The translations under genes and the position numbers were made by a program. A DNA stretch of 64,000 bases from Isoetes taiwanensis. Lineage: Eukaryota; Streptophyta; Lycopodiopsida; Isoetales; Isoetaceae. Every line of letters starts with the position of its first letter. The stretch's first letter is position 1. The stretch lies in the NCBI GenBank assembly GCA_021234155.1, contig JAJEKV010000098.1, positions 3,098,803-3,162,802 on the forward strand. The letters run 5' to 3'. Under the pieces are notes generated by a model. That model saw only the letters and a list, made by a program, of their open reading frames with translations. It was not told the origin of the DNA and did not search any database. This document shows, piece after piece, positions 1,758 through 21,835 of this stretch.

Positions 1758-3359
1758 CTAGAGCTGCCAGATAAAAGGCTTAATCTTAGGATTGATAGGG
1801 GAATTCCACATAAATCTCAGATTTTCAGAACACCTGTCCACGGAGATATCCCATTTTAAATGTAAGGAAAGAATGTAGCCTCTTGTCAGAAACTTGTAGA
1901 TCAGGCTAACTTTATAGTAATTTTTCCCTTTATGATGCCATTGGATCTCCTCATTATGCCAAATGCCTTGGCTTAAACATGCCTTGATAGCATTATAAAG
2001 TCTCCCATTCTCCTCATCCAAGTCTCTGTCGGACCATTTTCTGCATTGGGAAGGAAAATTCATAGCCAAGCACATGTTGGGATTATTTAGAATCAGAGAA
2101 GGGTTCCAGAAAATTGATTGGTCTTTAGAAAGCCCTTCTTTCCAACTATATATCTTATAAATAACCTTCCAAGCCTTGATCCATTTTTTGATGATGCCTG
2201 GAGTATTATTTGGAACCTTGAAGTCGAAAAAGAGACTGTCAGGCAACTGCATCTTGACATATCTCCAGCCAAAGGGCTTGCATCTAGATAAATAGTGTCT
2301 AACAAGGCAAGACACAGGGTGGTTGATCTTGTTAAAGCCAGCCCTGTAAATATACTTGGCTGCCAGTGCCATACTCTGCTTTTCAATATCAATAATACCC
2401 AATCCACCATTTCTCTTACTTTTCATACACTCTTTCATAGCCACAGGAATCCAAGTTCTACTAGTTCCCCCACTAGCTATAAATCTACCAAGAATGCTCT
2501 GAAGTTTGGAGGTGACCTTCTTAGGTGCTAAAAGAATGGAAGATTGATAAACATGAGAAGAAGATATAACTGAGTTAGCCAAAATTGCTCTGCCATTCTT
2601 GGAAAGAAATTTGTTGTTTATCAGATCAGCTTTCCTATTAAATTTCTCAATGATATCCCCCCATAGCTCACTAGCATTACTTCTCAAAGCAAAAGGAATA
2701 CCTAGAATTTTAGATTTAGTGATAGGAGAGATATACTCACAGCCGAGATTTTGAGCAGAATTCTGCCCTGTTACCTGATTGTATGCTATCAGCTTTGACT
2801 TGGTAGGGTTAATCTTACATCCAGATGTGTTGCCAAAGTTTTGAAGCAGCTCATGAGTGTTGGTGATTGAAGCCTCCTCCATCTTGATATAAAAGGTGTC
2901 ATCTGCAAAATGAGCATTAAGAAATACCTGTTTGTCTGGGAGCTTCAAGCCTTTAATTCTACCATCATTTTCAGATTTTTTGAGAGCACTGCTTAAGGCT
3001 TCCAATACTATAAGGAAGAGGAAGGGAGCCAAGGGACAGCCTTGTTTCACACCTCTTTTGATCTCAAAAAAAGGGCTGCATTCCCCATTGATTAGAACAG
3101 AAGATCTAGAATTCTTGAGAATGGCCAAAAAGATGCTGGTGACATCATGAGAAAATCCCATCTTATGATAACACTTAATCAAAAATCTCCAAGGGACAGT
3201 ATCAAAGGCTTTAGTGATGTCCAATTTGAGGAGGCCAATGTCTTGCTTAGTTTCTTTAGCCCAATTCATACCAATATTGGCCATCACTACATTGTCTAAG
3301 ATGAATCTATCTTTGAGATAGGCTGACTGATTGTTCGAGATGACAATGTTGAGGATCAT
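1758..3359 (-). pseudogene. LINE reverse transcriptase open segment
   Basis: A 533-codon open segment of ORF2 of the surrounding LINE. It carries the RT palm signatures LDITKAFDTVPW (motif A), GVKQGCPLAPFLF (motif B) and HFADDTFYIK (motif C with the FADD catalytic pair). KSKILGIPF and a C-terminal connection region follow. The protein would copy LINE RNA at the nicked target. This piece is open end to end, but it is frameshifted relative to the upstream linker (3,646-4,200) and to the zf-RVT region. The copy is therefore probably inactive, although it is not old. Confidence 0.92.
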
Positions 3360-4199
3360 GAAAATCTGGAGGCAATGGTGGCAGAAATGATCTTATAAAT
3401 AACATTGGTGAGGGAGATTGGCCTGTAGTCAGAAAAAGTAATTGGCTCCTCAACCTTGGGAATAAGGGCAATAAGGCTAGTATTAATTCTGCAGTCCATG
3501 GATCTGAGCATCAGAAATTCATTACACAGATTAGTAATATCAGAGCCAATAATACCCCAAGTTTTTTTTGAAGAATCCAGCAGGTAGGCCATCAGGCCCT
3601 GGGGTCTTACCATTTTCCATACCTGAGACACTTTTGAAAAGTTCCTCATTGGTAAAAAGGAGCTTTCAATGTGTCATTGTGAGTATCTTGAATAATACTT
3701 TGCATGTGGATAAAGTTGTCCATTTCAGCTTCAGAAAATTCATGGTTAATACCCATAATCTTAATAAAACGATTGGAGACAGCTTTTTTAAGATCAATAT
3801 CCTCAGAAAGAGTCATAACATCAGCTTGAATACTATAAATATGATTTCTTCTGATAAAGAAATATTTAGAGCTGGACCTTTCATCTTCCTTAAGCTCCTT
3901 AATTTTGGCTTTAAGCTGCCAACCTTTAGCAATCTTAATTTCCTCCTTTTCAATCTTAAGCTTGATCTCCTCTTGTTGCTCACGAGGGGAGGACTGAAGT
4001 TGAGCTCTAAGATCATCAAGGTACTGCTTACTTTGAGTGTGAATCTGCTTATCCCAGTTCTTGAGCCAGTTCTTGATGCTCTTAGAGGTTTGAACCCACC
4101 AATTCATCCATCCCAGCTGATTATTAGACTTGGGGATTTTGCCATAAATCTGCTCAAAGTCTTTAAGAAAACTATCATGCTGGAGCAGGGAAACATTCA

Positions 4200-4886
4200 A
4201 CTTAAAGAATGAATTTCTCTTAGTGCCATTGGGATTACCATTAATTTGAAGGAGCTGGGGGGAATGATCAGAAATGGTAAAGCCATTAAGATTGGAGACT
4301 CTATCACAACTATGCCAAAAATTTTCACTTATATAGAATCTATCATGAAGACATAGAATAGGATCATTAATTCTATGATTGGACCAACTATAGGAATTAG
4401 GCTGAGTTCTAGCAAGCTTGAGATCATGGCTGAATAAAAGATGATTCCAGGAGTTGGCCTCTTGATTGGTGAGAGGTTTCTAATTGGTACTTCTCATAAA
4501 ATCATGAGTGACCATATTAAAGTCCCCTGCCATGATACAGTTCTCATAAGGGATCCTGTCCAGACTGTTCCTAATGCAATTCCACAAAGAACTTCTTTCA
4601 CTAGGCTGGTACTGAGCATAAATGTTAACAAAGGCAAACTTTTTGAAGTTAATATCTCCATGAAGAATCTGCCACCTGCCACAACTAGCATTCATCATTT
4701 GAATATTAGAAATATTAAGACTATCTCTCCAAGCTATAGATATCCCTGCATAAGAGTTGTTAGCTTTAATAGCCCAAACTTTAAAATTAGAAGGCAAAGA
4801 AAAGGAAATTAGCTTTTCAAAATCATCATCATGAAGCTTATGTTCCTGGAAGAAAAACATGTCAGCTTTTATAGTAGAAAGACAAA
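4200..4886 (-). pseudogene. LINE apurinic-type endonuclease, C-terminal part
   Basis: The reading frame continues from 4,886 to beyond 4,200 with one stop near 4,480. It shows FFFQEHKL (the QE active-site strand), YAGISIAW, FVNIYAQY, MAGDFNMV and SDHSP, in the order of the EEP/APE nuclease family. The first strand (VSWNLQG) is absent here but present at 21.9 kb. Joining the two across one copy of CAAA (TTTG on this strand) keeps the frame open. That is the main evidence that the intervening 16.9 kb is an insertion. Confidence 0.9.
4883..4886. repeat. Target-site duplication CAAA, left copy
   Basis: CAAA directly precedes the left terminal inverted repeat. The same four bases follow the right one at 21,832-21,835. 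One copy is required to restore the LINE frame. Confidence 0.85.
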
Positions 4887-4898
4887 AACAGAGTTGCA
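4887..4898 (+). repeat. Left terminal inverted repeat of the 16.9-kb element
   Basis: AACAGAGTTGCA is the exact reverse complement of 21,820-21,831. Similarity continues as NNN-GAAACG on both ends. Confidence 0.85.
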
Positions 4899-4901
4899 AT
4901 A

Positions 4902-4930
4902 GAAACGAGCGAGGATCGTTGAAACGGGAG
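4902..4930 (+). repeat. Left subterminal GAAACG repeats
   Basis: GAAACGAGC (4,902) and GAAACGGGAG (4,921) lie just inside the left terminus. GAAACGGGAG recurs, also as an inverted pair, inside the right terminus. Clustered subterminal motifs of this kind often serve as transposase-binding sites; that role is inferred here. Confidence 0.6.
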
Positions 4931-7900
4931 CAAAAGGAATATTCCTCGAAGATTCATTTTTTTTTTTCAAAAAAAGGGCTAAAATGAGGTTTAAAAAAAA
5001 AAAAAAACATAAAACTGTATCTTGACCCCCTCAAAATCACTAATTTTGTTGTGCAATGAGAGAATTAGCTATTTCAAAGTGACACTTTTCTAGCAATAAG
5101 AATTTGGATGAAGTATGTTTTTAGAGAGAAGCTCTAATTTGAGGGAACATATATTTTAACCAAAACTTTAAGTGAAGTTTACAACTGAAATTGTAGTATT
5201 TTCAAAAATTGAAGACAAAATCTTCACATTCACATACAAAATTTACAGTCTTTTTACAAGACTTAGTTATGTACAAAAGTGTGAGGAGTGATCACAGAGG
5301 GATCCAGCACATCTTCATCCTCATTTATGCCATCTTCATCACCTTCGCTTCTTTCGCTGTCGCTTGAGGAAGTGCTTGAGTTATCTTCCTCGTCATTTGT
5401 CAGCATCGGATTTTGAAGCATTACCGTAATCTTCTTCATCTTCTTCCTCGTAGCTACATGCCTTCTTAAGTAAATTGATTGTTCTCTGGCGTAAACGATT
5501 GTCAGATTTCAATTTGAAATCATAACATAGAATACTCACTTTGCATATGTCTAGCTCATCCCTATTACCCACTCTCTTGAGTTTTTTCCCCTTGCCTTGA
5601 CTTTTCATTTCTAAATCATATCTCGCCTTCAAAAGCATTTTACGAGCGTGTAGCCATCCAATTGAATCTTGAGTTTAGTCACCAAGCCTTCCTCTTTGAT
5701 GTGGTCAAGTACTTTTTTGCTATCGAAAGGTCGCCCTTTATCATCGTCCTCGGTCGGGTAGCAATCAACATACCTTTGGTAATTTACGTGATATTACTGG
5801 CGGGCTCATTTTTTGCGTCTTGGCGAGGTACATGACCCGATCCTCGTCTTTCTTGGTGGTGCTCTACCGGGTGCTCTTGTAGCATTGCTGGCCTGCACGG
5901 TTAGGAGTTCGTGGAAGGCATTAGGCCAATGGAAAGCTTCCTCCATTTGCTTTAGAGCTAAGTTTTGATTCACAATCGTTTGTTCAGAAAGAAGCTTCTC
6001 CACCACATTTGGTCTTCTTCTAAGAAGTACTTAAAGCCCGAGAAATTCCACTTTCAATTGCTTTTAAGGAGTTAGCCGGTGTTTTTTCTGCTGCTTTGAC
6101 TCTTTTGGGTTTTGAGAGGAAGCTTTTCGGCACGTTCTACTAAGCAAGTGTCGGGGAATATACTTAAGGAAGCAGAACCCCTGGGGTGGACTCGATCTTT
6201 AGTAGTGGTGTATTTCTTCCCTTGTAAAAACTCTGGTCCATCCTTCAAGTAAAAACTTGATGTGGTGTTGAAACGTAATATCGTTCAACTTGTTCCACGG
6301 CTTGTTCTCTAGAGCCCGTCGAGAAAACAAATTCCCTAAAGTCAGCAGTCTCCGGCATGGGAGTGTAAGAGTCTTCAATGATTTGAACCAAAGTAGGAAG
6401 ACAAAAGCCTTCTTCCTTCTTAGACGAACGGAAAATCTGCTGAACATCTTGTCTATCGATCATGAGTGTGCCCTACAAGTAAGAATCCAAGCTTGACATT
6501 TTGAAGATCCCTAGCTCCACTAGCATGGCACGGTAAGCAAAGAGTGTTTGATTCTTGTTCTCCCCGTAGTGTTGTCAAGGCTGCGGTGTAGAGCAGCGGA
6601 GGTAATTGCTCTTGCTCACAAAGCACCTTATTAAGAATTGTAGAGGTTCGGGTCACCATGCAAGTTAGGATAAAGTCAAAAACACATTGCACTTTAGACT
6701 TCCTTTGAAGACCATAGCTCCAACAAAGGTGGACCTTAACAAAGCATTCCTCGGCACATCTTTAGGAATATTCAAGAAATGAGGAATAGTAGTCTTTTCT
6801 GATCCATCCCATCAATCACAAAGACATATCTTTGCGCAGTGGGACGTTCAAGAGCTTTTTTCTGTGCTTAGCAAGCTTCCTTCTCTCGGTCGCTTGTTGG
6901 TCACTTGTCTAGCAAGCTTCGTTTTACGATATCTGATTCAAGAATTCAGGTCAAAACAATTCTTTTGAAACAAGTTAGAGAATGAAGAACTTCAACTTAC
7001 TTTTTCGACCTCGTCTTTTTGCGGTTTCTTTTTGGCTCTTCAATTCTACACACGTTGAGCACCACGGACATCCTATGTTTTTGGGAATTTTCACAAGACC
7101 AAACTGAATTTTCCATAGTCTAGTGAAGTGAGAGTAAGAGATATGTTGAGCCTGAGTGCATGTTTCTTTGTCTTGGTTGAAGACATCTTTTTTGTGATGT
7201 TGTCGTCCAAATGATACATTTTTTGTTTGGCTGACTTTTCACGCGTCTCTCTAAAATATTTCTCCATCAAGCTCTGACACCTAAGGCGTGCATTGTTACA
7301 ACTCTTCCGGCCGCAAAAGTGATCATCAATTTGAGGGGACTTTATCCAATTGATTGTATTGAGACATTCTAGTGGACCCTAGGCGGTGAACAACCACAAA
7401 ACATTTCAAGCACACTTGTTCACCTCTAATGTAGTGCAAGAATGTTTTGCGTCTGGGCCTTATCTTTGTATGCCAAGTAGGCATTTTGATCGATAATGTC
7501 ATCGAACTATACACGTTTCTAATTTCGAAGTTTAGCCATGTTCAATTTGGTGATGCAACCCAATGAGCAAAGCATCTAGTAGTTCTTAGAATTCTCCTCA
7601 TTTTGTTCTCGTCCATAAGGTTTTTCCTTCTCACGGATGAACATGCTCTCAATCCATAATCCACCACTGAATTTAAGGTAGTTTACTGGAGAACATGTAA
7701 TCTCATTGGTCGTTGTTGCCTTCATCTTCGGACGAGAGTTCTACTCTTGCAGTGGCCTCCTCTACCCTCACTGGTGTGTTTCTAGAGGAAAAGAGGCCTC
7801 GTGAAGTCATTCTGGAAAAGGAGGAGGCACGGTGTTAAATGTAGGAGATGGGCCATAACTTTGTTGTGGTAGCAGATGTTGTGGCAGCATCTTGTTGAGG

Positions 7901-8015
7901 AGTTCTTGTAAACATATCTCTTACTGCACTTTGAAACTCTGCAAACCCATGTGTCACAATATTTGTGTGTCGAGGTGTTGAAGCTGCAACATCATCCTCA
8001 TTTGTGTTGAAGTCA

Positions 8016-8019
8016 TATT
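8016..8019. repeat. Target-site duplication TATT of the nested 4.4-kb element, left copy
   Basis: TATT precedes AACAAGGTGAC; the second copy is at 12,444-12,447. Keeping one copy restores an open frame in the surrounding gene. Confidence 0.8.
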
Positions 8020-8053
8020 AACAAGGTGACCTAGCAAACGCACTAATGACCTG
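8020..8053 (+). repeat. Left inverted repeat of the nested 4.4-kb element
   Basis: AACAAGGTGAC, three variable bases, then GCAAACGCACTAATGACCTG. This is the reverse complement of the right end except at the three variable bases. Confidence 0.8.
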
Positions 8054-8419
8054 CATTTGCACCACAAAAAGGAATCTTTCAAAGATTCCCTAAAAAATAC
8101 CATAAATTGCCGCCACTTTTGGGGGGTCAATTAAAAAAATGACCCTAAATTTACGAATTTGGTAGCTATTTTAGGGGTCAAAATTACCAAAAAGTTGGCG
8201 TCTTGTTAATTTGACATCCCCATCTAATTTAGTTGTTTTCGGGACACATACAAAAAGTGGCAAAATGAAACAACCAGCAAATTCTTGACAAATTTTGAAG
8301 ACAAAAAACATTAAAATGGAGCCATTATGCATTTTTATTATTCAAGAAAAGCACACATGCTATCGTGCATGGGCAAGGCACAAAAAATAAAAACACAAAA
8401 GAAACAAAATTACCAAATT

Positions 8420-11400
8420 GCTATGCGCCATAGCGAGGGGATCCTAAGTTTGAAAGACAAACATTGTACAAGTCATGTACGGTGTACAAATACTCAAATT
8501 TTAGTAGCTTACGACCTTTAAGAAGAGCGTGTATTGGAATGTCGTCAGTACTCATCAACTCCTTGATTTGGTCATCACCTTAAACATCTACCATTTTTTG
8601 TAGTTCAAATTTAAAATTGCCCTCCATTTTAAATGCAAACTTCCATTTTTGGGTGTGATGCCATAACATGAATTTTTGGATTTCAATATGCATATTGGTG
8701 TATCAAAACTTAAGTTTTAGGTGTTTTGCAAACTTAAGATATCATGCTAAATCTGGGAGACTACAAAAATCATAATGAATACCACATTGCCAAAAGTTCA
8801 GATGAATGTCCTAAGCATTTCATGGTCACATGAATTTTACGTTTTACAACATTGAAAGTGGCAACAAGGCTCATATATAAGTTATTATAATATTAACATT
8901 ATTGTGAGGCTATGCGTGCATAGCACTATGACTACACAACAATATGTGATGTGGTGGATGTTTGTTAAAGCATTGTGAGGCTATCAGCGCTAGGAAGGAC
9001 CGGTGGACTACACACGAGTGTGAACCATTGGAAAGAGTGTTATAGAATTAACAATAATGCAAAATATCATGACTTAGCACAACGTTATGCATGTGTATAC
9101 CCTTGGCTAAGGAAGACAATGTTACTGAGCTATCTAAGTAGAACCAACTTGAAGACACGAGTTGTCACTTTGCACACCAAAATGTTGTCAAGCTAAGTGC
9201 TCATAGTAGGCCTAGTCAAGAAGATATTGTTAGGATACCTAGATTGCAACCTTTTGTGTAAAAAAAAAAGATAAACAAATAATGGTAGGTTGGGAGGAAA
9301 TTAGGTAGGTAGAAACAAGAACATGGTAGAAAAAATGGGTGGGTAGGAGGTAACACGGTAGGTAGGGGCTATGCGCGCATGGGCAAGTTTTCGATGCTAT
9401 GCGCGCATAGCAAAGTTATACCTACCGGAATTACGTAAATCGGCTTATTGACACGAAGTGAGGAGGAAGATCTTCCTTTCGGGACATTTTTGTTGCATGA
9501 GCCATTTCGGGAGATTTTGCAGCCATTCGGCATTTCGGGAGATTTCGGCATGAGCCATTTCGGGACATTTTTTCGGGACATTTCGGGACATTTTTGGAAG
9601 ATAAAGGAATCGAAGACCTTGCAGTCGTACATGAGCCATGGCTGAGATCTAAAGGTTTGGCCGAGCTATTCCTTGCTTGCTATCCTTATGCTCTGAATAT
9701 CTTGTTTTCATTCTTTGAATAATAGGGTTTTAGATTTGGACGGATTCGAAGGCTTTGTTCGCAGAAGAGCAGGTCGAATGTAGTAATAGGGCGAGATCTT
9801 GAAGTCAGACCTCTTGCAACTGGAGATTTTGCAGCAGGCTTACTTTCTCTAACTCTAGCATGATTGCTGGTAAGAAGATTCTATCTATTGATCTATTAGT
9901 TCTGCCGTTTCTACTCTGAAAACTTATGGAAAAGCATTATAGGACAATCTTGCAGATGAATTTGTTCCTTTCTCTTTTGTAAGATGAGGTTTGAGGTGAT
10001 TTAGAAGGTGATTTCGCAGGTGGATTTTGATGATTTTTCAAGCACTTTCAGGTAAAAATTTGAGATATTCTGAGTTATTTCTTCTCTTTGCAAGTAATTT
10101 CTAGAGCCAGATGCCTGTACTTGCTTTGTTTCTGGAACAGCAACTTGCCTTTAAAAGCATGTTCAGTTAAGTTTATGATTTAAAGAAGCATGTTCAGTTA
10201 ACTTTATGATTAAATTCTTTCAACGTAGTAATTCACTTACGAGTTTTAACATAGTTTTGTTTAAAAATTTGCAGCTAGAACACTTAGTTGCAGGGATATG
10301 ATCAGCATTCTTGGCCTTTTCTTTTATCTGAACTGTCTACCCATGCTCAAGTAAGGTTCTTAGAATATTGTTATAATTCTAGCAAGATCAATTATTTCTG
10401 AAAGATCTCAAGGATTTAATTATTTGGATTCAAGGACCAAGAGGGCTTTGAAAATTTCCTGATTGTTTCTCAAAGGTTTTCCCTCTACAGCTGTACGTAT
10501 TCTTCACATTTTAATTACATTCAATGGAACTGTGATTTTAAATGTTAGCTATGTGTGCACAGCCAAGAGCTTTTAAATATTGTTGCTTGTCTATGCGCGC
10601 ATGGACAAGCGATATATTTTAAAGCTCTACCCAGGCTAGATGTTGACAAAACTAGGTGTTATAGAAATGACATATTATTTAGGAGTTCCTTTCTATGCCC
10701 ACATAGACAAGTGGTACTTTTTGTTTTCGTTGATCCTATGCGCTCATAGGCCATGCCATGAGCTTCTATTATTTGGTCTTTAGTTCTTATTGGGAAATGT
10801 TGAGCAAAGATGCATCAAATTCTAATGCTTGTACACCAGTTAAGAAGTCTACATTTCCGCTTACAGAAGCAAACACCTGGTTTTATATATATTATGTAAA
10901 GATGAACAATTGATCTTTAAAGACTTTAATGTCAGTTGATATGTTGCTTGCTTTGTGATCTTCCTGTAGTTACTTGCTTTGTGATCTTCCTGTAAGTTAA
11001 AAAATATAATAAATGTTGCCTTTTGGATTTCTCATTCGCTTCAATGCAATTCAAATGTATAAATTTTTTTTTTCTACAACTTGTGTTTATGATTGTCTTC
11101 ACAAATGTGGATGTTTTACATTGCAATTAGTCCTTTTAAACATAGTTTACATTTGAGACCAGGGAATAAATTACTAATCGCATATTTTTTATTAGCCAGA
11201 ATGACTTTAGCTAAACTTGCTCGATATTAATCCCAAAACTTTCTGTGGTTTAGCTAAATTCTATATATTTTCCCTCTCATACTTTCTAGCGTTTAGCTAA
11301 ACTAACCCAAATATCATCCCAAAAATTTCTATGGCGTGTCCAACAGAAAATATTATACTTGTTTTCAATTGTTTCCACTTATTCTAGTCATTTTTTTTGT

Positions 11401-12218
11401 GAAAACATTCTAAAATAATGCTAATTAGCAAAGTCTAGGACTCAAATTAATTCATAATGCTAGAAACTAAACTATTAATCATATATTTCTTATAAACTAT
11501 ACTGATGTTAGCTAAACTAGCCCAAAACTCATTCTAAAAGTTTCTATGGTTTAGCTAAACAATACAAAACTTCACTCTCTTACTTTCTAGCGTTTGGCTA
11601 AAGAGCTCCAGAGTTGGTGCGGTCCCGAAAAAAGTTAAGCTAAAATTATTATTTTTTTCCCAATTTTTTCCATTTACTTTAGCCAAATTTTCTTGAAAAT
11701 GTGCTAAAAAATCACCAAATAGCTAAGTTTAGCCCTTAAATTATTCCATGTTTGAGACTCTACAACAGGCATGAATTTTAGATTTGAATTATGCTTGTTT
11801 TACATTGCTATTAGTCCTTTTAAACAAAGTTTACATCTGAGACCCTAAAACAGGCATGAATTTTAGATTTGAAAAGGGAATCCACTTGATACCACTGTTA
11901 AAACGATTGACGAAGATGACAACAACAAAGAAAACCTTCATGCTAAGCAAGTTCCACTTGATATTTAAAACTCTTCGACCTAATCGAGTTCAAGTGCCAT
12001 TATTATTTATTATTTGACTTGCATTCTTTCTAGAGTACTTAAAATTGACTATCTCTGTCTATGCGCGCATAGACAAATCGCTATTCAAAAAGGTTCCGCT
12101 TGACGCTTAAAAACGAAATTGGCCTTGTTTAATGCAAATGTGATGATTACATTTTCATGAGCTTATATCTCTCCTACGTATTTGAACTAATGTGTCTCTC
12201 TCAATGCGCGCATAGGCT
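8420..12218. repeat. Dispersed palindromes, consensus GTCTATGCGCGCATAGAC
   Basis: Copies lie near 8,420, 8,909, 9,369, 9,396, 10,548, 10,590, 10,692, 10,735, 12,057 and 12,203. The best are GTCTATGCGCGCATAGAC (12,057) and GCTATGCGCGCATAGC (9,396). Others carry one to three changes, several of them compensatory (CCTATGCGCTCATAGG, GCTATGTGTGCACAGC). The only other copy I found is at 51,952, in a relative of this element. Confidence 0.8.
9470..9600 (+). repeat. Short tandem repeat of CATTTCGGGA(C/G) units
   Basis: About eight imperfect units, some joined by 'tgagc', lie inside the nested element. An open frame across them (CPEMSRNV-type repeats on the minus strand) is a composition artefact. 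Confidence 0.7.
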
Positions 12219-12410
12219 ATGTGTAATGTATTTTGCAATCTTGTATCATAAAAGCCCATTTTTTGTTCTACTTTGACCACAATATTTTTACGCACTCCAA
12301 AAATGGTTCTTTTCAATGTGCAACCTTTTTTTTTGTTCTTATGTTTTAAAAAATATGCCAAAAGTACCAAATTTTGGTGTTTTTGAAAAAGGAATCTGCA
12401 ATTGCACCAC

Positions 12411-12443
12411 AGGTCATTAGTGCGTTTGCACCGTCACCTTGTT
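12411..12443 (-). repeat. Right inverted repeat of the nested 4.4-kb element
   Basis: CAGGTCATTAGTGCGTTTGC, ACC, then GTCACCTTGTT. The flanking TATT is at 12,444-12,447. The inner extension (12,391-12,410, GGAATCTGCAATTGCACCA) is conserved at 51,750-51,775 in inverse orientation. Confidence 0.8.
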
Positions 12444-13287
12444 TATTGAGAGAAGTTGTGGTGAATCTCGTATTCTTCAGACCGTGCAGCAGACCTTGCA
12501 CTTCTATTCGGTGATGGAGATACGACAAAGGGTGGGGGGAGCCTGTTCCGAGTAACCTTTGCATGTGGAGCCAGTGCACTTTCGGGGGAAGGAACAAAGG
12601 GTAGTGGAAGCATGTTACATACAGGTGGTGATGGAATGAATGGAGGGGGATACCTTTTTTGTGCGAGGACTTGGTGATTTGGAAGGGTTGTGGCAACTGT
12701 TTGTTTGTTTTACGGACTTCGGAGTGTCGAAGACGAAAGCAACGAGGAGGTTGCCGAGGAGCGAGATGGAGAAGAGGTGGTATCATGACAAACAACGTCC
12801 TGGACCAGGGCTCCCTCCGAACTGGACGAACTAGATACTACAAAAGGTGGTGGTAGCTTGTTCAGCACGCGGTTAACCATCTTACAAAGCTGCAAAGCAT
12901 TTGTTAGACATAAGTAAAACACAGAAGTGGTGTGCATTTTGTATTCGGGAATACAAATTGAGTTGTCTCTGTGAAAGGAAGGAAAAGCGTAAGACAAAAA
13001 GAAAGCGCAAATGTATTAGGAATACCACGGTGATTGGCCAATTATAACGTCTTGTATTGATTTCACATAGAACTTGGACAAACGTGTCAGCGTATCTTTA
13101 AAAGGAAAAAAATGCGCCCTCACTTTTCTATTCGACTTAGCAGCTCCGGTCCCCGGACCAGCGCCTCTCCAAATTTTCACTTTCGAGCCGTATTAGATTT
13201 ACATAGGCATACCATGGACGGGTTAGTGCGACTTGTCATTTGTGCGTGCTTTTAATCATTTAAGTTAGACGTACTGTCCTTCTGTCT

Positions 13288-13612
13288 AGCCAAAGTGCAT
13301 TCCCGAATACATTTTTGCTTTCATTGGTAAGCCAAAGTGTATTCCAGAATACACTTTGCCTACCAACTAAAGCCGAAGTGTACCGGGAATACACTTTTGG
13401 CAATCCGTCAAACCAAAGTGTATTAGGAATACACTTTTGCTTAACGATAAAAGCCAAAGTGTATTCCGAATACACTTTGCTTAACGATGAAAGCCAAGGT
13501 GTATTCGGAATACATTTTGGCTAAACGATCTAAGAAAAGTGTATTCCTGGGAATACATTTTGCTTTACTTTGTCGCGGCAAAAGTGTATTAGGAATACAC
13601 TTTTGCTTACTT
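13288..13612. repeat. Array of eight palindromic repeats, period about 41 bp
   Basis: Each unit has arms AAAGTGTATT / GAATACACTTT around a variable 0-4-base centre (CCC, CCA, AGG, CC, CGG, CCTGG and others), separated by about 18 bases related to 'gcttaacgatgaaagcc'. A lone degenerate copy lies at 12,941-12,958. The array is in the presumed leader or first intron of the transposase-like gene. The same motif recurs in introns of the methyltransferase-like gene. Confidence 0.85.
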
Positions 13613-15616
13613 TCAAGGATTGCAATGTTTTTCCTTGTTTTAAGTGTCAAACGCTTGTTTTTCCCCGCTTTTGTTACTTTAGCTGATTATCCCGCTCTAG
13701 TTTACGTTTGCTAACGACACCATTTTACAGACCAAAACCGCCCTGAATAACAACCGCTAAGAAGATCGTGAAGCTTGTCACAAAGAAGCACCGACCACCG
13801 AAGAATCAGGTGGCCCATCCGGAACCAACCGTCTCTGAATGTTTCCAAACTCGGTGGTTCTTTACTAGAGGCCATGGGGGCAAAGTACTCCACACTCACA
13901 TTCTTACACGCGTCAGAAGAGTCCGGGGACAGCGTTACGACGACGACGTCGAATTCCAGTGCATGGGCCATATAAAGAGTGTTGAAAGTGTTGCTGGGCA
14001 GTCTGGACAGCGCAGTAGGCTGTCATTTAATACATCACAGGGGATGTTTGTTCTTGATGAGGCTATGTTGAGGTTGCATTAGAGAAAATATGGGGTCTTA
14101 GAATATCCTCCTAATAAATACTTGAAATTCCACATCAGATTTTGCAATCCACCAATAAGGAGCTTGCTCTTTGTTCAAATGGCATGTCTACGTGGCTAAG
14201 GAAATGCCCAATATATTTAGAAAATAGTGCAAAAGATCTCATGAAGATACGCTAGATATTTGAGAATTGTGGTTAGGTAAGATAGGGGAAATAATTACAA
14301 GGCATTTCTATCATCGAGCATCCAGTAGTTATTATTACATTTAAAAAAATACACAACTCCATTTCGTATCAGCAAAATACGTCTCGAATTTCTCGCAACC
14401 CATTTTCGATTCCCTCTCCTTCCTATCTCCCTATCGAAAGTCCTTTCCGGTTCTCTCTGTTCCCGTTTCCCTCCATTCAGGCTTCCCTATCTCCATTGTA
14501 ACAGGCTGCTTTGTGTTTTGTAATCGATCGTGGAAGCTTGCACTGATAATTTTGCATTGAGAGGTTTCTTGCCATGAATCTTTACTGACATTTTTTTATT
14601 GTCTTGTAGACGATGTCAAGAGTAGGATATGAACTGAGAGCAATCAGTTTGCATGTTTTGGAGATCTGTAAGCATGTTCAGTAACCTGTTTTATGAAGCA
14701 TGTTAAGCAGATAGGTAGATGATAATTCTGGTTTGCATTTTGTCTAACTAACTGTATGTATCTTATTTGATGAAGTAATGATTGGTTTGTGCAGATCTTG
14801 GAGCAAAGCGGACAAGCATAGCCGATGTATGCAAAAATTGATTTGGCGTGCTTTAGCTGTATCTGATAGCTCCAGCACTTTTGCAGGTTATTACTTATTT
14901 GCCAAAAGCCTCTATGTAACTAATGTGGTTGATACAAAATGTTATGGGAAAGCTGGGACCATTTACAAACAAGAACGTAAGCCATGCTTTATTGTGGCTC
15001 CATTATCCTTACACAGTGGCTTTGCCTTAAGGCCCCAAGACAAATTGTTGTATGTTTGTGATATTTCTTGCATTTAACATTCTGCATAGCAGTGCATGAA
15101 GAGCAGTGCATGAAGTGCTAGGACTCTAACAAACTACAAAATCTACTCATTCTTCTTTCTGCTCCAACAGATTCTAAAACTGCATGCCAAATAGTTGGTT
15201 TTACAAGGTTCAAATCCTTGGATAATGGATATCTGAATATGACTGCGTTAAATAGTTCATGATAGCCCTTTTTAATTCTTTTGGTGATCCTTTAGATCCA
15301 TATTACCCTTAAGAAGAAAGTTCAGTTTGCCTTGAAGGTTTGTTTTCAGTTTGCCTTGAAGGATTGCTGGTCTTTGTGGGATGATTTGGCATGTATCCAG
15401 CACATGCATACTGCCCAAAGTTAGATGCAGCGTGCAGATGTTAACCATATGATAGTTGTTAGTATGTAGCTTAGGTTCTCTACTCCATCTAGTTTTGCCC
15501 ACCATTTTGGATATGTATCAGAATAGCATGTTTGGATGTGTATCAGAATAGCAATTTGGATGTGTATCAGAATAACTTGTTTGGATGTGTATTAGAATAA
15601 CAATTTTGGATGTGTA

Positions 15617-15838
15617 TCAGAATAGCTTGTACTGATGAAGCCAGTCAATAGCTCGATTCCAGTCTGACCTGGGAATGGATACAGCCTGCAGAAAAATACA
15701 ACTTATATTGTAAGGTATAATAAGGCGTGAATTTAACATTATACACACCAAATCTAAAGCCAGATTTTTCTTACCGTAACACCAGTAATCGCTTTTATCC
15801 TTTGAGCTCCAAAGCACTTCTCCGGCAGTACAAGCCAA
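15617..15838 (-). other. Possible two-exon coding fragment of unknown identity
   Basis: On the minus strand, a segment ending in ITGVT is followed by GTAAGAAA. A TTTTTCTGCAG acceptor precedes AVSIPRSDWNRAIDWLHQYK in the same phase. The splice sites are good and the joined frame is open, but it is short and I do not recognise the family. It could be a relic of the gene captured in this segment, or chance. Confidence 0.25.
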
Positions 15839-16150
15839 ATCATTCTCGTTTGCCTCTAATAATCAGTTGAACAGAGCAGAGTTTTGGATTTCGTATAGAA
15901 AGTTTGGGATGAAAGTACTTCTAACATTTTTCCGAGAAGAACAAGTTCCCTATTGTTCTGGTGAATTTAATTCACGCGTTGAAGCTGCTGCACTGGGCAC
16001 GAAGTAAGAAATATAGAGCTTACTCATCAAATTGGATATGTTTTATGTTAGAAACAAGTGTATACTCTAGATATAGGACAGAGAATCAACAAAGGATGTT
16101 TAAATTGTTGCATGTTCCAAGGATACAGGTGCATGCTGCAGAATGATTAG

Positions 16151-16597
16151 TTGTTACCTTTGGTGCTAAGTATGATGACGAAATTTGTGATGTGGAGCCG
16201 ATTCAACCCTCCTTATTTGTTCTCCATAACCACAACCACAGCTCTGTTTCTGCTTCTCATTATGCTGTATCATGGGGGTTACATCTCCAACCCCATTCAA
16301 TTTGAAGGGAATCAAGCAATCCCACATCTTATTGATCCCTCTGACTGTCTATCTTCAGCAGATCTGCCAGGAAAATTTCATGGGAAGTCTACTGAGTGCC
16401 CTGAATGTCTGAACCCTCTGAAAGTGTACATGTATGATTTGCCCGGGAAATTCAACTTAGACTTGCTTGTAAGGAATAACCCAGGGCAGCCACTACAGAA
16501 GAAAAGCCTGCCTAAGCCGATTAACTCAGGTTTAAGGAAGCAACACAACGTTGCATACTGGACAACGAGATCCATTACTCCTGGTGGAAAATTATAG
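16151..16597 (+). pseudogene. N-terminal fragment of an exostosin-like (GT47) glycosyltransferase
   Basis: A 148-codon open frame begins with a short cytoplasmic stretch and one hydrophobic segment (residues about 24-41, SITTTTALFLLLIMLYHGGY). That is a type II Golgi membrane anchor. A stem follows, then LKVYMYDLPGKFNLDLLV (residues about 92-109), close to the K-[IV]-Y-[VM]-Y-[DE]-LP-x-x-F motif that opens plant exostosin/GT47 domains. The frame ends at about residue 148 (TTRSITPGGKL), far short of the 400-500 residues usual for the family. No downstream catalytic part is visible on either strand. Full-length relatives add sugars to cell-wall polysaccharides. This is probably a captured first exon. 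Confidence 0.55.
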
Positions 16598-18422
16598 CAC
16601 CCAAGCAACAAAAGCTCTTGCCTTGTCTGCAATAAATTTCAGCATCTAATTACCATTGAAGACATAAACAATCATTGTCAATTATGAAATATTGCCATCT
16701 AAAAGTAACACATACATCAGGAAGAACATCCATATAAAGACCAGATGAAAGTGTGCAGCTAAATTATGGCCAGTTATGCGCAAAAGAGAGTTAAAGACTG
16801 CTAGAACTCATCAACATAATCTTCTTGTTGAGCAGATAAAGTAACGGGATCCTAGAGCTACACATTCCAAAGAAGCTCTGTCATGAATCATGATCCATCC
16901 AAATTGATAAGTTATCAAGCAAGTAGAAATGTCTAACACCTAATCTAGCTAAGAAGCTATCACATACCTTAAGCACATGAAAATATTCAGATAGATACTA
17001 TCGCCACAAATCGCATATTTGCATGACTATCAAATGCAGCCAGCAACATCTTTCCTGCATCAAACAGGTGGCTAAAGCTTGTTGCAGAATCTCATAAACA
17101 AAAATAGAACTACTTTCAAATCGCCTAAAAGCGCAAAATAATGTTAAAGGCTGAACACAAATTCTTACCTGTATGATCCGATGAGCAAGAACACATTAAG
17201 CCATTGCCTCGCTTCATCCAGAGAACAATCAGGACAAACACAGGCACGTCATCAAAATTCCCAGAATGAAAAGCAGGTTTCTGAGGCCTAAATCCGCATT
17301 CAAAAGGGGAAATTTTTTGACATAAAGAAGTGCCGAAACTGAGATCCAAAAGCTTATCTTGAAAAATAGGAAACAACATGTTCTACCTTTTCGAACAGTT
17401 TTTTGTCTATCAGAAGGAAGCTCTGCATCATTTAAGATGAATTGCCATTGTTTCTGCAGATAACTCAGCAGCCTTGTGAATCCTTTTGCTCATAAATCCT
17501 GGTTAGAATTGTATATAAGTCCAGGGAGTTGAACCCTGATAGACAAAAGTGCCTATGTCCAATAGCATGTGGCAAGCACAGTATAATGCCACATTGCATA
17601 TCACAAAGCAAAGATTCTGATCAATGGAATTAAAACGTACTTATCAAGTTGATCACAAGATCCAGCAGTTTAACACTATGAATCTCACAGTCAATTGATG
17701 ATGAATCAAAGCCCTGTGCCCAGAAAATAAATTGTAAACTAGAATGGAACAAGGAAAATTACATGTAGAGCCTATTCCCCTGTTTTAATTTCGAAACTCT
17801 GAGGAGGACAATGAGGTTAGGACGCTTCTCTTCATCCGAGATCCTAAACAGTAGAAACATTTTATAGATAAATATGAAAGACAAGGAAAGCCAAATCGAT
17901 TTTACTAAGCTGCCAAGGTACAACGGTGACCTACAAAGAATAGGAAGAAGCTGGGACTTGGCTATGATGGTGGTGAGGGGAAAAAAAAAAAGAAAAACAA
18001 GAATAATCCTACAAATGGAATTTTTTTTGTTGTGGGAAAAAACGAAGTTTGTTTTTTTTTTCCGAACATTGCCGTATCCACAAATCCTTATTAACTCATT
18101 TTCCCAAATTTTGCTTTATATAGGATTAACTTTACCACAGCCCCTCGAGGTAATCTTTGAAATGTCATATGAAAGCTTTTAAATATGCCATAGACTTCAC
18201 ACACTCTTGAGATCTTATCCCCTAAAAGTCTTTAAATATTGCACGCTTTCAAGAGTCCACGTGGCAGCAGGGGAGCAAAAGAAGGAATAAAAGATTTGAA
18301 AGGGGGTGGGAAAGATATCACAGATTTGCCTTCTTAATGCCAAGAATTGACCCCTAGCCTCATATTATATTTTTCCAAAAAATACAATAAAAATAATTTA
18401 TAATTGCTTAGGGGGACACCAA
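16598..18422. other. No gene recognised
   Basis: AT-rich sequence with short open frames only. A minus-strand frame at 17,125-17,379 contains KISPFECGF but is not credible as a mitochondrial nad3 copy. Poly(A) and poly(T) tracts occur at 17,980 and 18,050. Confidence 0.5.
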
Positions 18423-18487
18423 GAGACCCCATTTTTTCTCTAATGACTAGGGTACAACCAACTCCACTTTACAAGTATGTGGCACAC

Positions 18488-18495
18488 TATATAAA
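18488..18495 (+). promoter_or_regulatory. Possible TATA box of the methyltransferase-like gene
   Basis: TATATAAA lies about 50 bases inside the end of the GT47-bearing segment and upstream of the acidic N-terminal coding stretch. The upstream part of the open frame (from 18,404) may therefore be untranslated. Confidence 0.3.
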
Positions 18496-19459
18496 CAAAC
18501 AAACACTGTTGTCCATTGTACACACTGTAAGTTCTTCGTTTAGTGAAGATTTTACAATTAGTGACACAGAGGAAGAACAAGTGGAAGGCACTAGCAGCCC
18601 ATCTGATAATGAAGGGAGCAAAGAGGATTTTGTGGAGCAAGAGCCACGAAGGCAAGTGCCACGAAACACTGTTGCTGCTAAAGAGCCAGCTAAGAAGAGA
18701 ATGCAGGCATTAGTGATATCGGAAGAGCCAGAAGAAGAACCAAAACAAAAGAAGGCAAGAGGAAAAAACAAAGCCCCTAGTGTGGCTATTAAAGAAAAGA
18801 AGGTCGGCAAGACCTCAGAAAAAATGGCAGCAATAAATAGGGAAAAGCTTGTGCAAGGTGTGATATATTTGCAAGTAACATCAATGAAGCCGCCACCAAA
18901 GAACGAAAACGGTGAGAGGCCTCTTCAAGTTTGGAAGATTTATGCAGATCATTTAAGGAACTTGAAGGACAGGATTAGGAGCAATCCGTATGCTCATGTA
19001 GCTCCTATAGTTGTGCTAGTTGACAGGCAACAGTGCATTAACCCCGCCCAGTATGACAAGGAAAATGCGGATACCTACACGCATTATGTGTTGGGGGGAA
19101 CCACAGCTTCAAAGCAAGGAGGCAACTGTACAAGGAGAAGTTCAACGCGAGGTATCTGACGGTTCTTTGTGCAGTATATTGTGGCCTTACCGACGAAGAA
19201 GCTAAGATCGTTGCCAACACCCACAATGCGGACAACGAGTACAAATTGAAGATGAGCTTCGTGGACAAAATAAGGTTTATGCACAGAGAATTTCTTATAT
19301 TTAAAGAAAAATATATGACGACCTAAAGAAGCCAAAGATACTCCTTGAGCTCAAAGAGGCGCAGCCATAGAGTGTTGTCTAAAAAGCGGCGAGGACAACA
19401 AAAGGACCTCTCTTATTGGCCATGACAACTGGTTCCAGCTTGCTTTTAGAGAAGGAAGG

Positions 19460-19545
19460 GTATGTCCGCATTTTAGTTCAAGTAGCTAGTCCCAGCATTC
19501 TATTCCAGAATACATTGTACTAACGCCACTTGTTACCATGTTTAG
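19460..19545 (+). other. Intron in the methyltransferase-like gene
   Basis: GTATGT donor, TACTAAC branch-site match at about 19,519-19,525 and TTTAG acceptor. The intron itself holds a degenerate palindrome copy (TATTCCAGAATA). A well-formed plant-type intron argues that the gene has lived in a eukaryotic genome for some time. Confidence 0.65.
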
Positions 19546-19874
19546 ATATGGGATTTGCAAAACGAAATTTTTAATATGTTCGAGCGCGGAGACCTCAAAA
19601 GTAAGGGCAAAGTGACAGACAAGAAAAAAGGATCCGATGTTCCAAAAAAAGAAATGACTATCACTGTCTGGAGAGTGCTTCAAGGATTTACAGACATTCC
19701 GTTGTTAGAAATGTTACTGCAAAAGGTTGTGGACAAGGAATTTACATTAGAAGAAATGTCGAAGGAGTTGCACAAGTAAGTCTTTTAGAAAGTTTAGTCT
19801 TTTGTGTCAACGCTCTGTACAGTCCAAAAACTTTAGCCTTACAAATCCGTCTGCAACGCTGAGAAACTGAAGCA

Positions 19875-19993
19875 AAGCCAACGTGTATTCCGGAATACAC
19901 TTTGGCTTAAACAGTAAAGCCAAAGTGTATTCCGGAATACACTTTGGCTTTAACAGTAAAGCCAAAGTGTATTCCGGAATACACTTTGGCTTT
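19875..19993. repeat. Three palindromic repeats GTGTATTCCGGAATACAC inside an intron
   Basis: Three near-perfect copies separated by 'ggctttaacagtaaagcc', itself partly self-complementary. They belong to the same family as the array at 13,288-13,612 but are far less diverged. The intron runs from 19,776 (GTAAGT) to 20,043 (CTGTAG). Confidence 0.9.
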
Positions 19994-21783
19994 TCTTGTT
20001 TGATGTGGTGTTGTTTTGTGATTGCGATAAAGTTCTTCTGTAGACGTGTCCCTGATGTAATTCTTGGTTTGGATGTTGCGACCGGTAAGAACGTCATTAC
20101 ATGTCAAACATGTTTGATGGAACAATTGAATGTGCAAACATGGGAACGGTGCAAGGAGCTTTATCCTATTGCTACATCTGACGAGAGAATTGTTCAGTAC
20201 GCTCCAAATTTTGAAGGCTGGGTAAGCCTGCTTTGGGCGTTTAGGTAGCGTAGATTTGTAAATGTTCTAATTATTTTGTGGATTTACAGAGTAAGAAGAA
20301 AAACAAGGACCTACCAGAAGGTTTCATGCACCTGGTAAGGATTGCTTTCGGGAAGAAAGAACTTTGGCAAGAAGCTGCCGGATTTGTAGAGGTCGCAGAA
20401 AACGGACTATGAAACGTTTACTTTATTCGACCAAAACAATCTTTACTCAATTGTATATGGGAACCGCACCAAGCTTGTAGCGAAAGTGTGAAGCCACAAG
20501 ATTTCACGCTAATCATTGCCTGACATTCCCTACGACTTCAAGATTAAAGACATCGACACGATGACATCCTTTTAAGCATGCGGATTTCAATGAATTCATA
20601 AAAGGCTTAATGAAGATCACTACAGACTAGAAGGTTAGTGGTATTTCACTCAAAGATGCAAGCTGGTCTTGTCGGCCGACCAAAAATCACTTTGGATCTC
20701 CGACCGTCGTTCGGGTTACGAGAACTTAGTCCGCACGCCAGATACGGAATACACTACTTGTTATTTTCTTTTGTTGCTGACCATTGACCTTTCTCTTGAA
20801 GGTACAAAAGCGAATATAAATTATCATGGTGGAGGCCCCGTGCTATTAAGCAAAGTGGAATATCTCAGACGTTGTTCTTACCGGAGCTTCGATGGCAAGA
20901 GGACCATGGAGCATTTCAACACTTCCGCGACCTTGCGACTTCTCAAATGTTTTAGAGTTTCCCCGCAGTTGTTACAGAAGGTAAAGACCCGACAGAGTGC
21001 TGGGGCGTAATTGTGAACCACTATCGAGGCCCCAAAACTCATCAACCATCTCATTGACATGTTTTCTCGTCCAGGAGATTGGGTGCTTGATGCGTTCTCT
21101 GGCTCTGGTACCACCATTGCATGTGCACTCAAGAAGGGCCAAAATTGTGTGGCTGTGGACATAGACAAGGAGGCTGTGAACTTCATTAAGATGAGATTGG
21201 CTGTCTTACCAAACCTTCCTGATGAGAATCAAGAGCTAGGCACCAAATCCTCATCTGATTATGCCAAGATGACATCATCAGAGATTCAGCCACCTCTCAT
21301 GAGCTCTGTTGACGAAGAGGTTGTTTTTGTAGAGCTAAAAGAAGTTGCTCCAGTTGTTAATCCAGAAGACAAAGCTGAAGAAGAACGGGTTAATTCATCG
21401 GACAAGCAGCAGTCGACAACAAAAGAAGAGTCTGAGACAAGCAAGAAGGGTGATGACGAGTATATCTTGGACCTTTGAATTCAAAACTGATTAATAAATT
21501 ATTGTTAGCATTACAACACCACTCAAATTTGATGTGTTACCAAAATATCCGAAATATTTTTTTTTTTTCATCCCACAATTGATGGTTTTTTTTGTAATAC
21601 TTTGATAGATTTACATTGCATTTCGAAAATTTGCCCTTTTCAAGTATGTTGTTTTACAAAAACAAGTTCTCCCCTGCATGAGGTGCCAAAATTAGGGTAA
21701 AAAAGAATTGAACTATTGAAGAATCTCAACCTCAGCCCAAAAAGATCACTTTCTGGATCATGTTGTGTTTTTTACAGGGAATC

Positions 21784-21819
21784 TTTGAAACGGGAGTTGT
21801 GCAACACTCCCGTTTCAAA
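21784..21819. repeat. Right subterminal hairpin of the 16.9-kb element
   Basis: TTTGAAACGGGAGT (21,784-21,797) and ACTCCCGTTTCAAA (21,806-21,819) form a perfect 14-bp stem with loop TGTGCAAC. It directly abuts the right terminal repeat and contains the GAAACGGGAG motif seen at the left end. Confidence 0.85.
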
Positions 21820-21835
21820 TGCAACTCTGTTCAAA
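21820..21835 (-). repeat. Right terminal inverted repeat and CAAA target duplication
   Basis: TGCAACTCTGTT (21,820-21,831) followed by CAAA (21,832-21,835), matching 4,883-4,898. Confidence 0.85.

Follow-up and report, generated by a model that had tools for sequence, protein, structure and literature searches.

Positions 4887-21831 of a 64,000-nucleotide stretch of the Isoetes taiwanensis genome (contig JAJEKV010000098.1; the window hereafter means this whole stretch) form a single DNA transposon with matching termini and a direct 4-bp duplication, CAAA, on both sides. We show that it is a two-gene DNA transposon with terminal inverted repeats (TIRs), encoding a DUF7869 transposase and, divergently, a protein with a weakly ParB-like domain and a DNA methyltransferase domain (here the methylase), and that it has very many relatives in the same genome. 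Arrays of a palindromic word with a type-specific core lie between the two genes and in methylase introns, which is a new observation. The initial annotation had proposed one element at these coordinates, about 8.1 kb long with two genes once two nested segments are removed. The coordinates proved exact, as evidenced by the CAAA duplication and by the flanks, which joined with a single CAAA keep a 204-aa frame of the host long interspersed nuclear element (LINE) open over the junction. Subtracting both nested insertions and one TATT gives 8,148 bp.

4887-21831, no strand: whole element, including two nested insertions; ends common to other copies, flanked by CAAA, LINE frame closes.
4883-4886, no strand: left copy of the target duplication, CAAA, from the flank letters.
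21832-21835, no strand: right copy of the target duplication, CAAA, from the flank letters.
4887-4911, plus strand: left TIR AACAGAGTTGCAATAGAAACGAGCG, from comparison of termini.
21807-21831, minus strand: right TIR, AACAGAGTTGCATTTGAAACGGGAG in minus-strand reading, from comparison of termini.

The genome search covered 1,110 contigs with 1,658,258,908 bases in total. By rough first-look counts it met 1,444 candidates for the methylase and 9,907 for DUF7869, and for each gene the best 150 were scored. Between these two best-150 lists, 24 pairs lie no more than 30 kb apart compared with 0.8 expected under uniform placement. All but one of the 24 are on opposite strands, and in 22 the transposase is upstream of the methylase. 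Divergent pairs are separated by 5.1-6.0 kb (17 pairs) or 10-12.4 kb (5 pairs). Twelve compact pairs (L001-L012) were fetched; because they were chosen for having both genes listed, they say nothing on the frequency of pairing. All twelve and the window copy align mutually over both genes, in the same place and on the same strand. Both termini were reached by eight of the twelve and by the window copy, while L005 is without the right end and L008, L010 and L011 are without the left. The initial annotation had itself named, as outcomes speaking against it, a methylase never found between these termini or inserted by chance; the gene lies inside the termini in all nine copies with both ends.

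Random draws address the frequency of pairing. Among 26 of the 134 unfetched transposase matches, 19 have a methylase within the 3.1-kb upstream piece, and a type-B query adds a twentieth, L049, part of this match covering low-complexity acidic sequence. Of the seven pieces without a methylase by the first query, five carry palindromes (L030, L033, L036, L043, L049) and two do not (L032, L042). Eight methylase matches drawn from the 126 without a listed partner yielded a divergent transposase in the expected place in six cases. Finally, L013-L016 were picked as controls, being transposase matches without a listed methylase; three of them hold a methylase in the same place with 43-51% identity over the ParB part, and in L016 the one match, at the margin of the piece, is N-terminal with 26% identity (E 1.5e-5). 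The earlier claim that both genes sit between one set of termini is thus supported beyond the window by the 24 close pairs and both draws.

The termini read AACANNRTTGC..., with one changed base in the right terminus of L006; in the window the left terminal bases AACAGAGTTGCA stand opposite TGCAACTCTGTT on the right. By eye, all nine complete copies are flanked by 4-bp duplications (CAAA in the window, and TTAA, TAAG, AAAC, ATAT, GACC, ACCT, GCTA and CATT); the other four of the 13 copies are without one end and could not be scored. The right termini of L001-L012 and of the window (about 21780-21831) also show a long imperfect hairpin, AAACGGGAGTG-TTGCAG-CACTCCCGTTT, which by eye seems to be missing from the left end.

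Both genes of the window copy are decayed, with 13 stops in 913 covered methylase positions and 26 in 782 transposase positions, some of these stops perhaps due to matches extending into introns.

5263-12880, minus strand: decayed transposase gene (DUF7869) with nested element A inside it; both ends placed by eye, match over 5269-7664.
6453-6761, minus strand: transposase piece with the DUF7869 match (Pfam E 4.1e-5, just under the cut-off).
13733-19459, plus strand: large methylase exon with the N-terminal and the ParB-like domain, into which nested element B is inserted; start set roughly by eye, matches at 13795-14076 and from 18443.
19546-19775, plus strand: methylase exon 2, borders by eye.
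21017-21478, plus strand: open stretch with the S-adenosylmethionine-binding end of the methylase (DAFSGSGTT; PF01555 N6_N4_Mtase, E 5.3e-14), stop at 21476-21478.

Copy L001 matches N6_N4_Mtase (PF01555) at E 9e-18 and DUF7869 at E 2.2e-51 in Pfam. Its methylase gene has five exons and at least 943 aa of open frame, a short first upstream exon not being located; the exon borders are GT-AG. The initial annotation had further read the protein as a ParB-like domain fused to a beta-class N4/N6 methyltransferase. The methyltransferase half stands by its PF01555 match, and motif IV precedes motif I as in beta-class enzymes. The L001 protein matches the PHROG family phrog_67 'DNA methyltransferase' (E 5.2e-27), and the methylase matches the bacterial enzymes CcrM (E 6.1e-10), MboIIA (E 1.1e-8) and RsrI (E 7.7e-7); identity to phage records is 24-28% in 12 listed of 1,004. 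Motif IV, D(L/I)PYG, is kept in 10 of 13 copies (DIPYG in L007); the window has DIPYD, and L008 and L010 have a broken frame there. DAFSGSGTT is present in all 13. As a rule, an aspartate in motif IV goes with methylation of N6-adenine rather than N4-cytosine. By this residue, the sequence suggests N6-adenine as the target.

The ParB half of the claim is weak. Three of seven members match phrog_1033 'ParB-like partition protein' (best E 1.5e-4) and three of seven phrog_723 (best E 0.015); the likeness to DUF6551 is also weak (E 0.011 or weaker), and Pfam returned no ParB match. The part carries a GGNHSFKA or GGTHSYKA motif. A search of the Protein Data Bank with a profile of the ParB region placed unrelated dihydrofolate reductase-thymidylate synthase chains first (E 0.003), with sulfiredoxins behind (E 0.8-1.2), and therefore decides nothing on the fold. 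A tblastn search of phages with the ParB part gave three records at E 6-10, which is not significant, and a search for viral relatives that started from an alignment gave 45 pattern matches, none of them confirmed.

In the transposase, the aspartates of VVIDGMD, LQLDN and VGHTHDQID are kept in most of the 13 copies and would fit a three-aspartate (DDD) enzyme. The name DUF7869 was not found in the open-licence literature searched. The C-terminus of some transposases (for example L011 and L001) has a chromo- or Tudor-like look by eye, in a stretch such as FWIAKVLDTVKEEGLVTKFKIHWLATRSENAFEGRYELEM that has no Pfam match.

Two palindrome arrays were read from the letters of the window copy.

13337-13600, no strand: palindrome array, six more or less perfect GTGTATTCCGGAATACAC-type sites between the divergent genes.
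19883-19984, no strand: palindrome array in the intron that follows exon 2, with three perfect GTGTATTCCGGAATACAC sites at intervals of 42 bp.

Every one of the 13 type-A copies, that of the window among them, has repeats of this type, which we call type A, between its two genes, and 11 have them in methylase introns too. Among 104 sites, 57 of the 71 gaps below 100 bp measure 41-43 bp. The six positions of the palindrome that took no part in selecting the sites have an average information content of 1.28 bits, against 0.34 in the spacers, and eight complete copies contain 51 perfect 14-bp palindromes against 4.7 in base shuffles. Over all spacings, helical phasing at 10.5 bp reaches R 0.73 for type A and 0.45 for type B, type A fitting 13.9 bp equally, and with distinct spacings there was no signal (p about 0.26 and 0.3). 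Phasing is suggestive at most, because the arrays are inherited and duplicated.

Relatives hold words of their own type at the equivalent location between the genes. The exact type-A 24-mer occurs at 1,474 genome sites, the type-B word CGGTATAAATTTATACCG at 4,415 and the type-C word GCTATGCGCGCATAGC at 185, each with none for the reversed control. Type C is based on two sampled loci, only one of which has a matched methylase, and on nested element A, the place of both C words seen in the window. Type D, a weak type beside B, has the word GTATGAATTCATAC at 64 sites, compared with 11 for its reversed control, and each element holds few of them. The type-D elements also carry extra CGATTTT-type repeats of about 20-21 bp (L013 7086-7351, L014 1824-2175). 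All words share a common frame, TAT and ATA equidistant from the centre, and vary in the six inner bases: TCCGGA, AAATTT, GCGCGC and, more weakly, GAATTC. The type-A word was found in none of the four controls L013-L016. Eight type-A sites away from listed genes all lie in DNA that belongs to the transposon family beyond the arrays too, three of them by 262-410 bp only. Of the clusters formed by the first 50 sites listed per word, 7 of 29 for A, 1 of 14 for B, 0 of 41 for C and 5 of 24 for D are no more than 10 kb from a listed gene match, the lists having 300 entries, the best 150 per gene.

The type of word follows the clade of the ParB region. In a ParB tree of 35 loci, each labelled by its commonest word, one branch splits 24 type-A loci from 11 others (8 B, 2 D, 1 C). 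The eight type-B loci form one clade with a support of 0.98 and the two D loci fall beside it; support for branches inside A is often low. The tree holds those of 47 loci with a match of at least 80 aa, leaving out 12. L021 and L035 were kept though decayed and have long branches; the type-A word had been the reason for fetching L017 and L019-L021, four of the 47.

The ratios of nonsynonymous to synonymous change (dN/dS, omega) show that the methylase and the transposase are both under purifying selection. Median omega is 0.10 in the ParB region, where 24 of 78 pairs were usable (range 0.03-0.50), 0.22 in the methyltransferase domain (22 of 78; range 0.03-0.77) and 0.07 in DUF7869 (73 of 78). 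For the whole genes, 18 of 78 methylase pairs and all 78 transposase pairs were used. Pairs dropped out when synonymous change was saturated or codons were too few, so the methylase medians describe the closer pairs. The pairs share copies and are not independent.

The two genes do not share one history throughout. Seven copies (L002, L003, L004, L008, L009, L010, L011) have very similar transposases, differing at 0.00-0.23 of four-fold sites, while their methylases group as L003, L004 with L008 and L010, L009 with L011, and L002, with mostly 0.4-0.8 four-fold difference between groups; the L002 methylase is nearer to those of L004, L008 and L010 (0.15-0.48). From the ParB region onward the methylases of L002 and L012 are alike (0.08-0.22), and in the N-terminal domain they are unlike (0.66). 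With transposases this similar beside methylases so diverged and mosaic, an exchange of whole or partial methylase genes from element to element is probable.

We tentatively favour the reading that the ParB-methylase recognises the word of its own element and marks the element against silencing, although we put this at somewhat below an even chance. As a dimer, the ParB-methylase would bind the palindromes that belong to its type, and it would place a methyl group on adenine, or less likely on N4-cytosine, in or near them. Such a mark could keep both divergent promoters open against host silencing by 5-methylcytosine (5mC), and the type-specific word would restrict the benefit to the element's own kin, as VANC proteins do, by another chemistry, for the VANDAL elements of Arabidopsis, which are Mutator-type. 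This reading is favoured because it brings together the purifying selection, the close linkage, the clade-matched arrays in the promoter region and introns, the VANC precedent and the association of N6-methyladenine (6mA) with permissive chromatin. In unicellular eukaryotes, 6mA is a mark of transcriptionally permissive chromatin according to the accessible part of PMC12695648. A wider form of the idea, which we regard as doubtful, is a transposon superfamily with its own sequence-addressed marking: the ParB-like methylase would read its own palindrome array (TAT - six variable bases - ATA), add 6mA or N4-methylcytosine (4mC) and exclude silencing, with the core replaced together with the enzyme and the methylase genes reshuffled. 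The proposed change of specificity can be likened to the diversification of bacterial modification enzymes and their sites.

Several observations weigh against self-marking. Methylase genes have probably been exchanged among elements with very similar transposases, yet the core word is constant throughout type A; because of this constancy a fine co-divergence of enzyme and word is not established. Intron sites are missing in two of the 13 type-A copies (L001 and L006), and both type-D loci also carry one type-B site each. The CpG of the type-A core decays nearly only by transitions (CG 105, TG 30, CA 29, other 11; 59 of 70 changed cores). Because almost all changes are transitions, dead copies were probably 5mC-methylated at the core CpG, and any protection did not last. 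Structure models add little confidence, the ParB exon having a mean predicted local distance difference test (pLDDT) score of 36 and the DUF7869 exon one of 35, and together with the weak sequence likeness of the ParB part they count on the same side. Finally, the agreement between word and ParB clade would also arise from binding of the palindromes by the transposase or by some other linked factor.

The last point leads to the strongest rival, unlikely in our estimate, in which the transposase rather than the methylase binds the palindromes as operator or enhancer sites and the methylase acts elsewhere on the element. The sites of Spm TnpA and of Ac are precedents for transposase-bound words of the operator or enhancer type. 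The arrays occupy the promoter region common to both genes, and the transposase is linked to the palindrome type as tightly as the methylase is. Known subterminal transposase sites cluster at element ends, whereas these arrays lie in mid-element and in methylase introns and not beside the termini.

The position of the arrays bears equally on a role in the timing of transposition, in which hemimethylated DNA after replication would be the active substrate, as Dam methylation times the transposition of IS10. A bacterial-type amino-methyltransferase that is under purifying selection and linked to a transposase would suit this role; the 75 bp read at each terminus contain no copy of the palindrome, however, and the arrays are far from the ends, which makes the idea quite improbable. 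We consider it very improbable that the methylase limits its own element, marking its copies for quieting and keeping the copy number tolerable. The N4C methylase of bdelloid rotifers does mark transposons and is tied to silencing (in the accessible part of PMC8885841), but the carrier copy would have no obvious gain from such marking and selection on the methylase is strong.

That the methylase is a functionless passenger, an unrelated insertion or a contaminant is hardly credible: decay of the window copy and at least one stop in the matched methylase of 11 of the 12 fetched copies, some of these stops perhaps due to matches extending into introns, speak for it, but the gene keeps its place and strand in 12 of 12 pairs, relatives at 43-51% identity are likewise placed in three further loci, and it has GT-AG introns, is under purifying selection and, in the window copy, sits in a LINE. 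Chance neighbourhood or separate insertion is ruled out by the excess of close pairs (24 against 0.8), the mutual alignment and the random draws, and contamination by matches on many contigs, the introns and the LINE around the window copy.

The LINE into which the element inserted matches RVT_1 at 1758-3392 (E 2.9e-25); its endonuclease match at 4480-4953 is weak (E 8.5e-4, below the cut-off). The element in turn carries two insertions.

8020-12443, no strand: nested element A, with AACAAGG termini, a TATT duplication (8016-8019 and 12444-12447) and CTATGCGCGCATAG-type palindromes.
14077-18445, no strand: nested element B, with 43-nt TIR arms that are 77% complementary; breaks the methylase exon.

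Nested A showed no match to the transposase or the methylase. Because it combines the C word, an AACA terminus and a 4-bp duplication with no matched gene, it is probably a related, non-autonomous element that jumped into a member of its own kin. Nested B interrupts the methylase exon at the exact point where copy L007 continues reading; no target duplication was seen, and it too has no match to the transposase or the methylase. A fragment of nested B is weakly like exostosins of glycosyltransferase family 47 (GT47; E 0.025, below the cut-off) and is perhaps captured host sequence.

How transposons evade silencing is mostly unknown, VANC being the one worked case in the literature searched. 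This many-copy family of a vascular plant offers candidates for the enzyme and for its target site, each with natural variants, so that swapping types can put self-recognition to the test; the arrays give the idea of self-marking a concrete candidate target. If the reading is true, these elements would bring DNA methylation other than 5mC into a land plant, a topic under dispute, and the reading predicts exact positions for long reads.

The initial annotation had not known such an element as a described class, a view not supported in light of a published precedent, the Sola1 element of the brown alga Ectocarpus (accessible part of PMC12477816, to which all statements on this element are limited). 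Sola1-1_Ec32 encodes a protein with a ParB-like part and an N4C/N6A methyltransferase on the strand opposite the transposase, and the same paper already suggests the encoding transposon as the DNA that these proteins bind and modify. It also cites green and red algal cases of ParB-methyltransferases in transposons (Iyer 2011, Petroll 2025), which are thus reported as the same kind of transposon accessory protein. Since it is described in Ectocarpus and cited for other algae, the two-domain methylase opposite a transposase is a known kind. Set side by side by description, both are DNA transposons with the two domains in one protein (1104 aa in Ectocarpus, at least 943 aa in Isoetes) and the methylase opposite the transposase. 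Sola1-1_Ec32 is a single 21.5-kb brown-algal family, whereas Isoetes has an 8.1-kb family together with relatives whose genes are 10-12 kb apart; the vascular-plant host, the palindrome arrays and the mosaic methylase genes are on the Isoetes side. In the open-licence literature searched, which included part of the Isoetes genome paper, there was no report of such elements in land plants nor of palindrome arrays in them.

The Sola superfamily has 4-bp target duplications, a DDD transposase, TIRs of 11-1124 bp and lengths of mostly 2-9 kb (accessible part of PMC10741241). The 4-bp duplications in all nine complete Isoetes copies agree with this, and the imperfect TIR of about 25 bp and the length of 8,148 bp fall inside the ranges. 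By duplication and size the element is consistent with Sola, its transposase being known here by the Pfam DUF7869 match only. CcrM, MboIIA, RsrI and PHROG family 67 belong to the same enzyme class as the Isoetes methylase, but are bacterial or phage. The N4CMT of bdelloid rotifers is likewise a beta-type bacterial amino-methyltransferase (PF01555) that acts on transposons in a eukaryote; it differs in being a host gene and in having a chromodomain in place of the ParB-like domain (accessible part of PMC8885841).

The nearest functional parallel is VANC of VANDAL21 in Arabidopsis, an anti-silencing system whose words are YAGTATTAY and AGTTGTCC (accessible parts of PMC5735166 and PMC10398659). 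Both systems combine an accessory protein encoded by the element with a short word repeated in arrays, in introns as well as other noncoding DNA, and in both the word differs between related families; the family-specific arrays in noncoding DNA that mark VANC-type systems are found in the Isoetes elements. In contrast, VANC causes loss of DNA methylation and adds no mark, and the words of VANC, as described in these sources, are not palindromes.

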